Source of the DNA: Proteiniborus ethanoligenes
GTDB lineage: Bacteria; Bacillota; Clostridia; Tissierellales; Proteiniboraceae
Reading direction: 5' to 3'
DNA: 64,000 nt
Assembly: GCF_900107485.1 (NCBI RefSeq)
Contig: NZ_FNQE01000008.1
Span: 1-64,000 of the forward strand
Of the stretch, positions 13,681-19,581 are shown one piece after another (the first letter of the stretch is position 1; every line of letters begins with the position of its first letter). The notes beneath the pieces are model-generated. The model did no database searches. It was not told the origin of the DNA and saw nothing but the letters and a program-made list of their open reading frames with translations. The translations under genes were made by a program, and so were the position numbers.

Positions 13681-13726
13681 CCTGTAAAAATACAGGCTTG
13701 ACATTTATTTAATAGTCATATACTAT
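13681..13726 (+). promoter_or_regulatory. Promoter of the oligopeptide transporter operon
   Basis: TTGACA at 13698-13703 is followed, after 17 bases, by TACTAT (13721-13726). A small perfect hairpin (CCTGTA-AAAA-TACAGG, 13681-13696) lies directly upstream and could be an operator. No further operon-specific signal is evident. Confidence 0.5.
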
Positions 13727-13801
13727 TGACAAAAGTCTTCCGGAATGGACTTATACAGAAAATACAGAAAATTCATGCATTAATTACGAGGGGGAATGGT
13801 G

Positions 13802-15460
13802 TTGAATAAAAAATTATTTATTATCTTATTACTTGTATTAATTTTAACACTGACAGCATGTGGCAAATCCGATAGCGGCAATGTTGTTAAATCAGATGAG
13901 AATATGGGAGAGATTGTACCATCCATAACAATTTTAAGTTCTCTGCCAGAAGCGAATATGGTGAACTATGAAATGGCTAATGAGGTTGCTGAGGAGCTAA
14001 GAAAGCTTGGTGTAGATATTAAGGCTGAACCTATTGATTTTGCAGTATTAATAGATCGTATTTATGGTGATGACGAAGACTATGATGCTTATACTATAGG
14101 ATGGTCTGGTAGAATAGAAAGACTAGATCCTGATATGTTTATCCATTCTATAAATCATTCAAGTAATGCTAAGCCAGGCGGTAATAATACAGATAGATAT
14201 AGAAGCGATGAGTTTGATGCAGTTGCTGATGCTCAAAGACAAGAAATGGATGTTATGAAAAGACGAGATCTAGTATTTGAAGCACAAGAAATATTAGGCG
14301 AAGATGTTCCTAGAATTACATTATACAGCCGTGCAAACGTGCAAGCTTATAATAAAGACAAGTACAAAGGAGTTATCAACATACCTGGTGAAGGATTGTT
14401 TAATGAATGGACACCAATGTTTATTGAACCAAAAACTAACGATAAAGTTTTAAAGGTAGCAAGTAATATTAACCTAGATTCATTAAATCCTATGAAGGCA
14501 AAAAGTGTTTACGAATGGAGAAACTTAAGACTTATATATGACAAGCTTATAAGATTGAGTCCGGAAATTGAACCACAACCATGGGCAGCAACAGGCTGGG
14601 ATGTAATAGATGATACTACTGTAGATGTTCATTTAAGAAAAGGAATGAGCTTCCACGACGGGAAACCTGTAACTGTAGAAGATATTAAATTTACGTATGA
14701 GTCCTTTATTGAAAACGAAGTAGAATACTTTATGTCATTCCTAGAGCCAATAGATACAATCGAAATAACAGGAGAGAATACAGTTAGATTTAATCTTAAA
14801 AATCCGTATGCTCCATTCATTACAAATACATTGACACAAATTCCTATACTACCTAAGCATATTTGGGAAAATATTGAAGACCCACGTAATTATGATAACA
14901 GTAATCCAATAGGAAGTGGACCATTTGTATTTAAAAACTTTAGACCAGGTGAAGAGCTAGTAGCAGAAACTAATAGAGACTATTTCCAAGATATCAATAT
15001 AGATGGATACATATTCCAGATATTTGGTTCTCCAGAAGGTGTCTTGACAGCCTTAGAGCTAGGGAGTACAGATTTATTATCCTTTGACCTAGTACCTTCA
15101 CATATAGAGCAATTAAGCAATAATGAAGGTGGAAAATTCAGTCATTTAGAAGTAACGTCAGTAAATGACATAGGATTTTTCTACTTAGGAATGAATTTAG
15201 ATAGAGCTCCTTTTAATAACAAGGCATTTAGAATAGCTACTGCACATTTAGTAGATTATGATTTAGCATTAGATGTACACTTAAATGGATATGGTGGACG
15301 TGGTGGTGCTGGTTTAGTTATAAGTCCTGTTAATGAATTCTGGCACAATCCAAATGCTATTAAATATGATAAATACGATCCTGAAAAAGCAAGAGAAATC
15401 TTAAAGGAAGCAGGATTTACTTGGGATAAAGATGGAAAACTACGCATGCCTCTAGAATAA
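13802..15460 (+). CDS. Circularly permuted family 5 peptide-binding lipoprotein
   Basis: A 552-residue ABC-importer substrate-binding protein (SBP_bac_5: OppA/DppA/AppA). The signal peptide ends in the lipobox LTAC (Cys20). Unusually, residues about 38-208 are the family's normal C-terminal part: ITILSS, ANEVAEELRKLGVDIKAE, YDAYTIGWSG, LDPDMFIHS and VFEAQEILGEDVPRITLYSR. Residues about 214-552 are its normal N-terminal part: KVLKVASNINLDSLNP, LRLIYDKLIRL, VHLRKGMSFHDGKPVTVEDI and NPIGSGPFVF, ending at AREILKEAGFTWDKDGKL where the C-terminal part would normally begin. So this is a natural circular permutation in one uninterrupted frame. The TTG at 13802 is best placed behind GAGGGGG. It is the only binding protein in the operon; the cargo is probably peptides. 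Confidence 0.9.
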   Translation: MNKKLFIILLLVLILTLTACGKSDSGNVVKSDENMGEIVPSITILSSLPEANMVNYEMANEVAEELRKLGVDIKAEPIDFAVLIDRIYGDDEDYDAYTIGWSGRIERLDPDMFIHSINHSSNAKPGGNNTDRYRSDEFDAVADAQRQEMDVMKRRDLVFEAQEILGEDVPRITLYSRANVQAYNKDKYKGVINIPGEGLFNEWTPMFIEPKTNDKVLKVASNINLDSLNPMKAKSVYEWRNLRLIYDKLIRLSPEIEPQPWAATGWDVIDDTTVDVHLRKGMSFHDGKPVTVEDIKFTYESFIENEVEYFMSFLEPIDTIEITGENTVRFNLKNPYAPFITNTLTQIPILPKHIWENIEDPRNYDNSNPIGSGPFVFKNFRPGEELVAETNRDYFQDINIDGYIFQIFGSPEGVLTALELGSTDLLSFDLVPSHIEQLSNNEGGKFSHLEVTSVNDIGFFYLGMNLDRAPFNNKAFRIATAHLVDYDLALDVHLNGYGGRGGAGLVISPVNEFWHNPNAIKYDKYDPEKAREILKEAGFTWDKDGKLRMPLE

Positions 15461-15489
15461 AAGATAATACTTTTAAAAATAAAGCTACA

Positions 15490-15523
15490 AACATAAAAGT
15501 CGATGAATTTCGACTTTTATGTT
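15490..15523 (+). terminator. Intra-operon hairpin after the binding-protein gene
   Basis: A perfect 14-bp stem (15490-15503 with 15510-15523). Only a weak T-stretch follows, so it probably acts as a processing or partial termination point that keeps binding-protein mRNA above permease mRNA, as in many Opp operons. Confidence 0.75.
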
Positions 15524-15601
15524 TATAGTGCATAGATAATTTAGATGCTTTATAGATTCTATATTATGTAAGACAATTGGAATAGGAAGGGCGGTGGCTC
15601 A

Positions 15602-16576
15602 GTGCTCAAATACATATTAAAACGAGTATCAATAATGATTATAATGATTTTATTAGTCTCTACGATGATTTTTTTCTTGTTTAGATCCATGCCAGGTGAC
15701 CCAACTGCATTTATAATTGATCCTTCAATATCACAGGAAGCAAGAGAATTAATGCTAGAGAGATATGGTTTGAATGATAGTAAGTGGAAGCAGTACACAA
15801 TATTCATCAAAGATTTAATTAAGCTGGATTTTGGAGATTCCTTTTTTTATGGAAAACCAGTTATTCAAATAATTAAGGAAAGAATGCCAGCTACACTAAT
15901 TTTGATGTTTACAGCCATGCTATTTGCCTATTTAATTGGTATTTTTGGTGGTGCATGGATGGCTTGGAAAAGAGGTAGTGTAGCTGAATCAACAGGAATA
16001 ACACTTGCACTGCTTTTTCGCTCTGCACCTACGTTTTGGGTAGGGTTAATGGCCATATTACTCTTTTCCGTACAATTAAAATGGCTGCCAGCTCAAGGGA
16101 TGAGGACATCAGGATATACAGGTGAGACCTTTAAAGAAATTTTTTTAACTTTAGATTTTCTAAAGCATTTAATTCTACCATCTCTAGTAGCAGGTTTATA
16201 TTTTATAGCTACACCACTACTGATTATGAGAAATAGTATGTTAGAGGTTTTATCAGAGGATTATATTGAAATGGCTCATGCTAAAGGTCTTAGAGAAAGA
16301 GCTATTCTTTATAAGCATGCTGCAAGAAATGCTCTATTACCAGTTGTTACTGCAGGGGCTCTATTCATAGGCTCTGCCATAGGGGGACAAGTTCTTATTG
16401 AAGTCGTTTTTAGCTGGCCTGGATTAGGTAGAGAAATAGTTCAAGCAGTTACAAGGCATGACTATCCTTTGGCACAAGGTGCATTTATTATTATCTCATC
16501 TATACTAATGATTATGAATCTAGTGGCAGACGTTTTATATGCAGTTCTAGATCCTAGAATTTCATATGACAAGTAG
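15602..16576 (+). CDS. Peptide ABC transporter permease, OppB/DppB type
   Basis: A 324-residue inner-membrane permease of the BPD_transp_1 family. The N-terminus MLKYILKRVSIMIIMIL is typical of DppB, the first periplasmic loop carries the conserved FRSMPGDP, and the last third has the EAA loop (YIEMAHAKGLRERAILYKHA) that docks the ATPases, then EVVFSWPGLGREIVQA. Six membrane helices are expected. GTG start at 15602. It pairs with the OppC gene just downstream. Confidence 0.93.
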   Translation: MLKYILKRVSIMIIMILLVSTMIFFLFRSMPGDPTAFIIDPSISQEARELMLERYGLNDSKWKQYTIFIKDLIKLDFGDSFFYGKPVIQIIKERMPATLILMFTAMLFAYLIGIFGGAWMAWKRGSVAESTGITLALLFRSAPTFWVGLMAILLFSVQLKWLPAQGMRTSGYTGETFKEIFLTLDFLKHLILPSLVAGLYFIATPLLIMRNSMLEVLSEDYIEMAHAKGLRERAILYKHAARNALLPVVTAGALFIGSAIGGQVLIEVVFSWPGLGREIVQAVTRHDYPLAQGAFIIISSILMIMNLVADVLYAVLDPRISYDK

Positions 16577-16607
16577 CAGTAAAGAATAGAGCAGAGAGGT
16601 GAAAAGT

Positions 16608-17528
16608 ATGAATAAGGTTATTAAAATTTTTAATAAAAAGAAATCAGCCTCAATTAAGAGAAATAGCCAAGGAATCGGAGGATTGTTTTTAAAAAACCTA
16701 AAGAGGGACAAGCTGGCTCTTATGGGTGTAGTATTGTTAATGTTTTTTTTAATAATAGGAGTTTTTAGCGAATCTATAGCTCCATATGAACCAAGGGAGC
16801 GTCATTATAATGAAGATGGAAAAATTAGAAGACTTGAGCCGCCTTCAAAAAATCATTGGTTTGGTACAACAGATGTAGGTAGAGATGTATTTACACAGGT
16901 AGTTTTAGGAACCAAAACTGCTCTAATAGTAGGAATATTAGCAGCTGTTTTAGTTACCTTTGTTGGTTCTACTGTTGGCATCATATCAGGGTATTATGGA
17001 GGAGCTATAGATATTGTACTAATGAGAGTTGTAGACTTTTTCTATTCTATACCCTTTATCCCTTTTGTTATTGTATTGGCAGCCGTATTAAGCCCAAGCA
17101 TTAAAAATATTATTCTAGCAGTAACTTTACTATCCTGGGGTACAGTGGCAAGGCTAGTCAGATCACAGGTATTATCCATATCTAAAAGACCTTTTATTAA
17201 GGCGGCTAAAGTAGCAGGTGCTGGAAATTTTAGAATTATGACTAAATACATTTTGCCTAATGTAATTCCTATAATATTGCTTGAAATGGCCTTCATGGTA
17301 AACTGGGCTATAATGGCAGAAGCAAGTGTAGCTTTTTTAGGATTTGGTGATCCAGATAAACCAAGTTGGGGGCAAATACTTCATATTAACTTTGTAACAG
17401 GAAACTCCAGAAATGCTTGGTGGTGGACTATACCCCCAGGATTATCTATAGTGCTACTGCTAATATCTATTTTCTTTGTAGCAAGGGCTTTAGAAGAAGT
17501 TATTGACCCTAGATTACGGAGGCGATGA
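16608..17528 (+). CDS. Peptide ABC transporter permease, OppC/DppC type
   Basis: The second permease of the transporter, about 306 residues. A short cytoplasmic N-terminus precedes LKNLKRDKLALMGVVLL. HWFGTTDVGRDVFTQVV is the diagnostic OppC motif, and the EAA loop reads FIKAAKVAGAGNFRIMTKYI. It ends WWTIPPGLSIVLLLISIFF. The ATG at 16608 lies six bases after GAGAGGTG; an in-frame GTG nine bases earlier would overlap that site. Its end overlaps the start region of the first ATPase gene. Confidence 0.93.
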   Translation: MNKVIKIFNKKKSASIKRNSQGIGGLFLKNLKRDKLALMGVVLLMFFLIIGVFSESIAPYEPRERHYNEDGKIRRLEPPSKNHWFGTTDVGRDVFTQVVLGTKTALIVGILAAVLVTFVGSTVGIISGYYGGAIDIVLMRVVDFFYSIPFIPFVIVLAAVLSPSIKNIILAVTLLSWGTVARLVRSQVLSISKRPFIKAAKVAGAGNFRIMTKYILPNVIPIILLEMAFMVNWAIMAEASVAFLGFGDPDKPSWGQILHINFVTGNSRNAWWWTIPPGLSIVLLLISIFFVARALEEVIDPRLRRR

Positions 17529-17530
17529 GG

Positions 17531-18574
17531 ATGAATTTATTAGAGGTTAAAAACTTAAACATAGAATATGTAACTCAAGAAGGAATTTTAAACGCTGTAG
17601 AAGACGTTTCATTTACATTAAAGCAGGGAGAAAGTCTTGGCCTAGTTGGAGAAAGCGGCTGTGGTAAAACTACCCTAGCTAAGTCAATCATGAGGCTTTT
17701 ACCTAAAAACGGGAGAATTAGCAGTGGAGAAATGATATTTAAGGGAGAAGACATAGTTAAAAAAAACAATGAGGAGATAAGAAAACTACGTCTAAAAGAA
17801 ATTGCAATGGTTTCCCAAAGTGCCATGAATGCATTAAATCCTGTATATACTGTGGGAGAACAGCTTATTGAAGGAATCCGCGCCCATAGTAACATGACCA
17901 AAGCAGAAGCTACTAAAAGGGCAGAGGAAGTATTTGAGATCATAGGACTTGAGGCAAAGCGTTTAAAGAGCTATCCACACCAAATGAGTGGAGGCATGAA
18001 GCAAAGAGCTATTATTGCTATGGCTTTAACTTTAAATCCTAGCTTGATTATAGCTGACGAACCAACGACTGCATTAGACGTAGTTGTACAAGATAAGATA
18101 TTAAATCAAATTCTTCAAATTCAAAAACAAATTAATAGCTCAATGGTATTTATAACTCACGATATTTCTGTCGTTTCAGAAATATGCGATACAATTATAG
18201 TTATGTATGGTGGGAAGATTATGGAAAAATCCAGTACAAAGACGTTTTTTAAAGCTCCATACCACCCTTATTCTCTAGGACTTCAAAATGCGTTTCCAAG
18301 TATATTAGAAATTAGTGATGAGTTGATTTCTATACCAGGTTCACCACCTAATTTAATGAAGGAGCAAAAGGGATGTAGATTTCAGGCTCGTTGTCCATTT
18401 AGAACAGAGCTTTGTCAAAATGAGCTACCTAAATTAAAGGAAGTAGACAAAGAGCATTTTGTTGCCTGCCATTATACTGAGGATATAAACACATTTAGAA
18501 GAAAAGCTAAAAAGAGAGAAACATGGAAGCATGTACAGGAAAGACTTATATTAGAAGATAGAGGTGATGAATAA
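17531..18574 (+). CDS. Peptide ABC transporter ATPase, OppD/DppD type
   Basis: The first ATPase subunit, about 347 residues. Walker A is GESGCGKTT, the signature MSGGMKQR, Walker B LIIADEPTTALD and the H-loop FITHDISVV. The C-terminal oligopeptide-transporter region has the cysteine-rich GCRFQARCPFRTELC characteristic of OppD/OppF. An ATG at 17525 also exists, but 17531 is better spaced from GGAGG. It powers uptake with the OppF subunit encoded next. Confidence 0.93.
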   Translation: MNLLEVKNLNIEYVTQEGILNAVEDVSFTLKQGESLGLVGESGCGKTTLAKSIMRLLPKNGRISSGEMIFKGEDIVKKNNEEIRKLRLKEIAMVSQSAMNALNPVYTVGEQLIEGIRAHSNMTKAEATKRAEEVFEIIGLEAKRLKSYPHQMSGGMKQRAIIAMALTLNPSLIIADEPTTALDVVVQDKILNQILQIQKQINSSMVFITHDISVVSEICDTIIVMYGGKIMEKSSTKTFFKAPYHPYSLGLQNAFPSILEISDELISIPGSPPNLMKEQKGCRFQARCPFRTELCQNELPKLKEVDKEHFVACHYTEDINTFRRKAKKRETWKHVQERLILEDRGDE

Positions 18575-19581
18575 TGAATAGCAAACCTTTAATTCAAATA
18601 GAGAATTTAAAAAAATATTACCCTATCAATAAAGGAATAAGAGATGTTTTCAGGAGAAAAAAATCCTATGTTAAAGCTATAGATGATATTTCATTTACAA
18701 TAAATAAAGGCGAAATTTTAGGTTTAGCTGGAGAAAGTGGTTCGGGAAAAACTACTACAGGAGAGATTTTAGTAAGACTTCAAGATATTACAGATGGAAA
18801 TATTGTTTTTGATGACCATGACTTTATAGCTAATTCAAAAGAAGAAGAGAAAAGATTTCGTAAAGAAGTACAAATGATATTCCAAGACCCCTATGAGACC
18901 TTAAATCCTAGGTTCACTATATTTGAAACTATTGCAGAGCCTCTTAAGATTCATGGCATTAAGGATAAGAAAGAAATATACAATAGAGTACTGGAAGTTC
19001 TTGAGATTGCGGAATTGAAGCCGGCAGAGCAATATGCTTTTAGATATCCACATGAGTTAAGTGGAGGACAGAGACAAAGAGTTGCTATTGCCAGAGGTAT
19101 CGCAACGGAGCCTAAGTTTTTAGTAGCTGATGAACCAGTATCTATGTTAGATGTTTCTATTAGAGCGGATATTTTAAATCTTTTAAAGCATTTAAGAGAT
19201 AATATGGGCTTAACTATGCTTTATGTATCCCACGACTTATCCACCATTAAATATTTGTGTGACCGTGTCATTATTATGTATTTAGGAAAGATAGTAGAAA
19301 TAGGAGATGCTAAAGAAGTAATAGAGAATCCACAACATCCCTATACTAAGGTGTTATTATCCTCTGTACCCGTACCCAATCCAGATCATAAGAGAGAACG
19401 TATAGAAATAGATGATGAACTACCAGATCAAATTAATCTACCAGAAGGTTGTAGATTTGGTCCACGTTGTCCTTTCGCTACAGAAGAATGTATAAGCTGT
19501 GACCATACATTAATAGAAAGAAGAAACAATCAGTGGAGTGCCTGTATTTATCATGATGAAGAACTTATAATTTCAAAATAG
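18574..19581 (+). CDS. Peptide ABC transporter ATPase, OppF/DppF type
   Basis: The second ATPase, 335 residues, starting on the last base of the preceding stop codon (translational coupling). Walker A is GESGSGKTT, the signature LSGGQRQR, Walker B FLVADEPVSMLD and the H-loop YVSHDLSTI. The C-terminus has GCRFGPRCPFATEEC as in OppF. It completes a five-gene operon with an unusual binding protein and entirely standard membrane and ATPase parts. Confidence 0.93.
   Translation: MNSKPLIQIENLKKYYPINKGIRDVFRRKKSYVKAIDDISFTINKGEILGLAGESGSGKTTTGEILVRLQDITDGNIVFDDHDFIANSKEEEKRFRKEVQMIFQDPYETLNPRFTIFETIAEPLKIHGIKDKKEIYNRVLEVLEIAELKPAEQYAFRYPHELSGGQRQRVAIARGIATEPKFLVADEPVSMLDVSIRADILNLLKHLRDNMGLTMLYVSHDLSTIKYLCDRVIIMYLGKIVEIGDAKEVIENPQHPYTKVLLSSVPVPNPDHKRERIEIDDELPDQINLPEGCRFGPRCPFATEECISCDHTLIERRNNQWSACIYHDEELIISK

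Follow-up and report, generated by a model that had tools for sequence, protein, structure and literature searches.

Few bacterial receptors are as numerous or as well studied as the OppA/DppA-type proteins, whose parts are assumed to come in a fixed order. A gene in the first 64,000 nucleotides of contig NZ_FNQE01000008.1 of Proteiniborus ethanoligenes (this whole stretch is called the window below) raises the question of whether its product is such a protein with the chain circularly permuted, as a preliminary description of the DNA had claimed, and of what transporter and ligand such a protein would serve.

The gene and its product

The features of the gene and of the encoded protein are as follows.

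13802..15460, + strand: permuted family-5 solute-binding lipoprotein gene, 552 aa, TTG start, stop at 15458-15460 (ORF and homology comparisons)
13802..13861, + strand: signal peptide and lipobox LTAC (sequence; lipobox present in most clostridial relatives)
13922..14425, + strand: C part, residues 41-208, which ends ordinary family-5 proteins and here comes first (alignments)
14120..14122, + strand: Arg107, in the loop of DppA Asp436 (31 of 31 permuted against 0 of 21 ordinary proteins)
14426..14443, + strand: linker EPKTND, residues 209-214, from old C terminus to old N terminus (alignment with ordinary proteins; linkers of relatives)
14444..15457, + strand: N part, residues 215-552, which begins ordinary family-5 proteins and here comes last (alignments)

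The TTG at 13802 is favoured as the probable start by its spacing from the ribosome-binding site GAGGGGG and by comparison with relatives; a rival ATG at 13796 lies almost on that site. The normal signal peptide and lipobox of the preliminary description were found, with Cys20 of LTAC (codon 13859-13861) as the predicted site of lipid attachment. The N part closes with the conserved tail AGFTWDKDGKLRMP.

Order of the two parts

SBP_bac_5 (PF00496) was the sole Pfam match (E 2.1e-68; 231.6 bits against a curated cut-off of 32.4). It fell into two stretches, the main one placing residues 257-548 on positions 1-287 of the 368-position profile. The best solved chain, Bacillus subtilis AppA (1xoc), was likewise matched in two places, query residues 272-540 on chain residues 80-345 and query residues 49-184 on 367-496. 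BLAST against nine ordinary proteins, drawn from the window's own genome and related genomes and including E. coli DppA, always returned two pieces in swapped order which jointly covered the whole protein. For the ordinary protein L036 these were 215-539 on 33-357 (E 3e-41) and 45-198 on 377-522 (E 7e-15), and for E. coli DppA 206-539 on 30-378 and 58-174 on 402-513. Permuted relatives used as a control gave a single end-to-end piece in three of four comparisons and one long piece for L049. Residues 215-548 correspond to the first two thirds of OppA/DppA and residues 45-198 to the last third. When separate models for the N part and the C part were used to order the frames, 33 were permuted and 21 other family-5 frames, paralogues from the window's genome included, were ordinary.

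The plot obtained by aligning the two parts separately is non-collinear, as it should be if the end part precedes the beginning part, and the joint of the old termini, which had been proposed near 14430-14445, was placed at residues of about 209-214 (14426-14443). Since the canonical N-to-C order of the SBP_bac_5/cluster C fold is absent, the window protein is a permuted relative and not a canonical member. With the swap seen in comparisons with Pfam, with PDB chains and with nine ordinary relatives, its description as a natural circular permutant of an SBP_bac_5, cluster C binding protein is confirmed at the level of sequence. Part order is marked in neither Pfam nor NCBIfam.

The cut site and the predicted fold

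In ordinary proteins a helix ending in EKAKALLKEAGL is followed by a loop and then by the strand SIDLWA. The chain of the permuted protein stops just past the same helix (EKAREILKEAGFTWDKDGKLRMPLE, stop) and, after the signal, opens with the strand (VPSITILSS). The cut point, which separates the helix ending AGFTWD.DG from the strand after it, is one conserved place in the C-lobe (about 369/370 of the E. coli DppA precursor, about 354-357 of mature OppA), so that the new termini sit in the C-lobe; the tail motif and the junction are conserved throughout the permuted group. The lipid anchor would thereby have shifted from domain I, which holds the ordinary N terminus, to the C-lobe. A lipobox is present in most clostridial and in the haloarchaeal members and missing from the alphaproteobacterial members, some of which carry twin-arginine motifs; lipid tethering alone therefore cannot explain the permutation in this family.

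The AlphaFold2 model of the mature chain, built with ten sequences, had a pLDDT of 73.2 and a pTM of 0.76, with weak regions at residues ~100-131 and ~497-506; it was better than the model that included the signal peptide, which was poor (pLDDT 65). Its leading PDB matches were all of cluster C (NikZ, CtaP, DppA and AppA, E down to 3e-18), and they spanned only about 350 of about 500 residues at a TM of about 0.5, which by itself is no proof of the two-lobed, three-domain fold of cluster C. A partial match of this length is expected when a sequential aligner meets a permutant. Of the best 60 solved chains, not one gave a single match running the full length of the permuted profile.

In OppA the two natural termini belong to one domain, and a short linker should therefore suffice to join them without a domain swap. 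The permuted chain would fold like an ordinary cluster C protein. Alternatively, the leading C part might complete the lobe of a second molecule in a domain-swapped dimer; the linker between the old termini is indeed short, about 6 residues, and another binding protein, the arginine-binding protein of Thermotoga, is reported to swap domains (PMC4022495). We consider this arrangement improbable, given the common domain of the old termini and the monomeric behaviour of TpMglB-2, a permutant of another cluster (PMC4990184).

Distribution in other genomes

The search for homologues with the same order, which the preliminary description had called for, was productive. Patterns derived from the window protein, when run against 84,980 species genomes, picked out nine relatives, all matching end-to-end in one frame: seven from Bacillota of the Clostridia/Tissierellia type, one from a Spirochaetaceae bin and one from a Betaproteobacteria bin. 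Identity to the window protein was 65-77% in eight of the nine and 36% in the betaproteobacterium. A further 21 full-length permuted sequences came from Bacillota, Alphaproteobacteria and haloarchaea. At least one permuted gene was present in 8 of 399 Bacillota genomes, the window's own included. When the phyla of the betaproteobacterial and spirochaetal bins were sampled, no genome scored apart from those bins (1/299 and 1/198), values that are lower bounds because the threshold was strict and the profile was weighted towards clostridia. The spirochaetal copy, found on a contig of 9 kb, groups within Clostridia and may reflect misbinning or transfer.

On plasmids, 56 records contained a stretch that covered at least 80% of the query, and the 20 matches listed were all single-piece. 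The hosts among the matches listed included Nitratireductor, Neorhizobium, Microvirga, Roseomonas, Ketogulonicigenium, Maritalea, Halalkalicoccus, Haladaptatus and Halobaculum; matches in Alphaproteobacteria and haloarchaea ran in one piece at ~30-40% identity. A scan of viral contigs found no relatives. The permuted set was gathered by similarity to the window protein, so that independent permutations elsewhere would be missed.

Several side observations were made on this set. Two different permuted binding proteins were seen per genome in four cases (L029/L032 in Anoxynatronum buryatiense, L018/L026, L019/L025 and L024/L027). L023 (G212:C27:4874-5512) has one internal TGA and seems shortened, being either a broken gene or an assembly error. 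L049, L050 and L051 form a divergent haloarchaeal subgroup of longer proteins (about 640 aa).

The window's genome is a draft of 69 contigs, and the swapped order might in principle have come from two fragments joined wrongly in sequencing or assembly. The same order in one open frame was found, however, in independent assemblies, among them Alkaliphilus peptidifermentans DSM 18978, Anoxynatronum buryatiense and complete plasmids. Nine independent genomes with an uninterrupted match in this order exclude chance or misassembly, and the likelihood that the order is an artefact is negligible. An assembly join near the junction was ruled out by the unrelated assemblies, complete plasmids and named cultures included.

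Phylogeny and origin

Trees were made separately for the N part, for the C part and for the partner permeases; L023 (interrupted) and L027 (cut by a contig end) were omitted, and the ordinary comparison set was small (21). In the N-part tree all permuted members fell on one side of one branch (31 against 21 rows; support 99/97). The C-part tree was one-sided in the same way with moderate support (SH-aLRT 85), and in the OppB+OppC tree the partners of permuted proteins were one-sided with support of 100/100 (27 against 12 operons). These three one-sided groups point to a probable single origin of the permutation and mark the transporter as a distinct lineage. The simplest reading is one origin followed by inheritance and by transfer of the whole transporter. 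Members of the lineage occur in Bacillota, Alpha- and Betaproteobacteria and haloarchaea, and almost all have BCDF partners.

An origin by fusion, in which the C part of another binding-protein gene was placed before a truncated N part, was weighed against permutation of a single chain. Both the lower similarity of the C part than of the N part to ordinary proteins and the moderate support of the C-part tree are in its favour. Against it, the N-part and C-part trees each group all permuted members, both halves find their best match, out of nine ordinary proteins, in L036, and together the halves cover an ordinary protein almost without gap or overlap, which is not expected from a chance fusion. 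Fusion is accordingly a poor prospect, if a slightly better one than the domain-swapped dimer. Tandem duplication, the putative route given in the preliminary description, is the standard model for the origin of circular permutation; no tandem intermediate was seen among the frames compared.

The operon and its expression

The permuted chain had been described as the sole binding protein of an otherwise standard Opp operon. This description held good, with oppBCDF genes found downstream.

13698..13726, + strand: promoter-like site TTGACA-17-TACTAT, upstream of the operon (consensus match only)
15485..15528, + strand: stem-loop of 15 or more pairs in the gap between the binding-protein gene and oppB (z -5.45 against shuffles)
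15602..16576, + strand: OppB-type permease (homology, gene context)
16599..17528, + strand: OppC-type permease (homology, gene context)
17525..18574, + strand: OppD-type ATPase (homology, gene context)
18574..19581, + strand: OppF-type ATPase (homology, gene context)

In each of the nine genome relatives the genes B, C and D come after the permuted gene, joined by F where the contig extends that far. Genes of the OppB, OppC and OppD types (OppF where the contig allows) adjoin the permuted gene in 17 of 19 genome loci, window included. All ten plasmid loci opened with their flanks had oppBCD(F)-type neighbours, the two ATPases being fused in some. L085 and L087 carry a permuted gene without BCDF genes in the stretch examined and are possible orphan receptors. 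At L079 and L081 the BCDF genes come first and the permuted binding-protein gene after them.

Promoter-like sites in the region showed no excess over shuffles. A strong stem was present in the same gap in all five relatives that were folded, nearly the same in L009, L010 and L017 and different in L012 and L013. The probable effect of the stem-loop is to keep permease expression lower than that of the binding protein, which would fit the usual pattern of making more receptor than permease.

It is very unlikely that the protein is a specialised sensor or chemoreceptor instead of the transport receptor of its operon. TpMglB-2 has been discussed as a possible chemoreceptor (PMC4990184), and a gene for a methyl-accepting protein adjoins the relative L012, but BCDF genes accompany the protein in almost all of the lineages examined, and their permeases make up a lineage of their own that matches it. 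We conclude with high confidence that the gene encodes a functional, membrane-anchored binding protein of the OppA/DppA/NikA class (cluster C) with a circularly permuted chain. Such a protein would close on its ligand and deliver it to its own OppBC permease, with OppD and OppF driving transport.

The ligand

DppA grips its dipeptide at both ends, the carboxylate with Arg383 and the amine side with Asp436 (PMC12136057). This pair, a trait of dipeptide binding by DppA, is absent from the window protein. No Arg stands in the column of DppA 383 in the aligned permuted proteins; their residue at the Asp436 position varies, being E in most, and next to it is an invariant Arg. The Asp436 loop of the permuted proteins has two extra residues and this Arg (R107 in the window protein) in 31 of 31 cases, against 0 of 21 ordinary proteins. 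The label "peptide-binding" of the preliminary description is kept here as putative.

Gene neighbours differ between lineages. In Alphaproteobacteria, haloarchaea and the betaproteobacterium they include genes for M20 and M28 peptidases, hydantoinase/oxoprolinase, creatininase and M24 creatinase-like proteins; clostridial neighbours have no common ligand theme (an ABC exporter, adenine deaminase, an amidohydrolase, a short-chain fatty-acid transporter, UvrB and others). The operon of L049 contains CoA transferase and CoA ester lyase genes, a hint of a different ligand class. As a weak conjecture, the ligand may have an acidic group held by Arg107 and be derived from an amino acid or peptide, perhaps with a blocked or cyclised amine, and not be a plain dipeptide.

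Comparison with known systems

The permuted protein appears to be an old, overlooked branch of a very well-studied family, present in bacteria and in salt-loving archaea. Annotation by the presence of domains alone hides this recognisable subfamily under "ABC transporter substrate-binding protein". A natural permutant that comes with its own transporter offers a ready-made test of how chain order, anchor and terminus position bear on ligand closing and permease docking. We put forward tentatively, as a possibility with the odds against it, that the group is an ancient importer lineage of bacteria and archaea ("cluster Cc") in which the permutation moved anchor and termini to the C-lobe and became fixed along with dedicated permeases and a new Arg that holds an anion; the mechanics of docking and closing would be altered, and the ligand would be a non-peptide or an amine-blocked amino acid.

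No report of a permuted family-5/cluster C protein was found in the open-licence literature. PMC2588589 was considered as a prior report and rejected; SBP_bac_5 and circular permutation appear there in unrelated places. Permutation is known in cluster B, and within the open-licence literature the cluster C case is apparently new.

The window protein is homologous to cluster C/SBP_bac_5 proteins (OppA, DppA, AppA, NikA/NikZ) over the whole chain if the parts are compared separately. It shares with them the lipoprotein signal, the OppBC-type permeases and the two OppDF-type ATPases, the combination of a secreted or lipid-anchored protein with Opp/Dpp transporter genes being a trait of the cluster. 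It differs from the ordinary proteins in its swapped parts, in having its termini in the C-lobe, and in having Arg107 and a two-residue insertion in the loop of DppA Asp436; it also lacks a counterpart of DppA Arg383. The closest named equivalog is NCBIfam Opp4A (NF045467), which covers the two parts as separate stretches; at 132 bits against a cut-off of 650 the window protein is not a member, and all scores against the Opp4A, DppA, OppA and NikA equivalogs (NCBIfam) were far below their cut-offs.

The nearest precedent is TpMglB-2 (Tp0684) of Treponema pallidum, a natural circular permutant in cluster B for which the name "Type Ic/Cluster Bc" was proposed (PMC4990184). As in the present group, the permutation there is phylogenetically spread, Gram-positive bacteria included, and the protein is lipidated and has its own importer genes (PMC4990184). 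TpMglB-2 nevertheless belongs to cluster B (MglB, sugar) and is cut in another fold and at another place. Homology to cluster B sugar-binding proteins, the trait of Cluster Bc, is absent from the window protein, which had SBP_bac_5 as its only Pfam family and cluster C chains as all its top PDB matches. In contrast to TpMglB-2, the permuted family-5 group also has alphaproteobacterial proteins without a lipobox.
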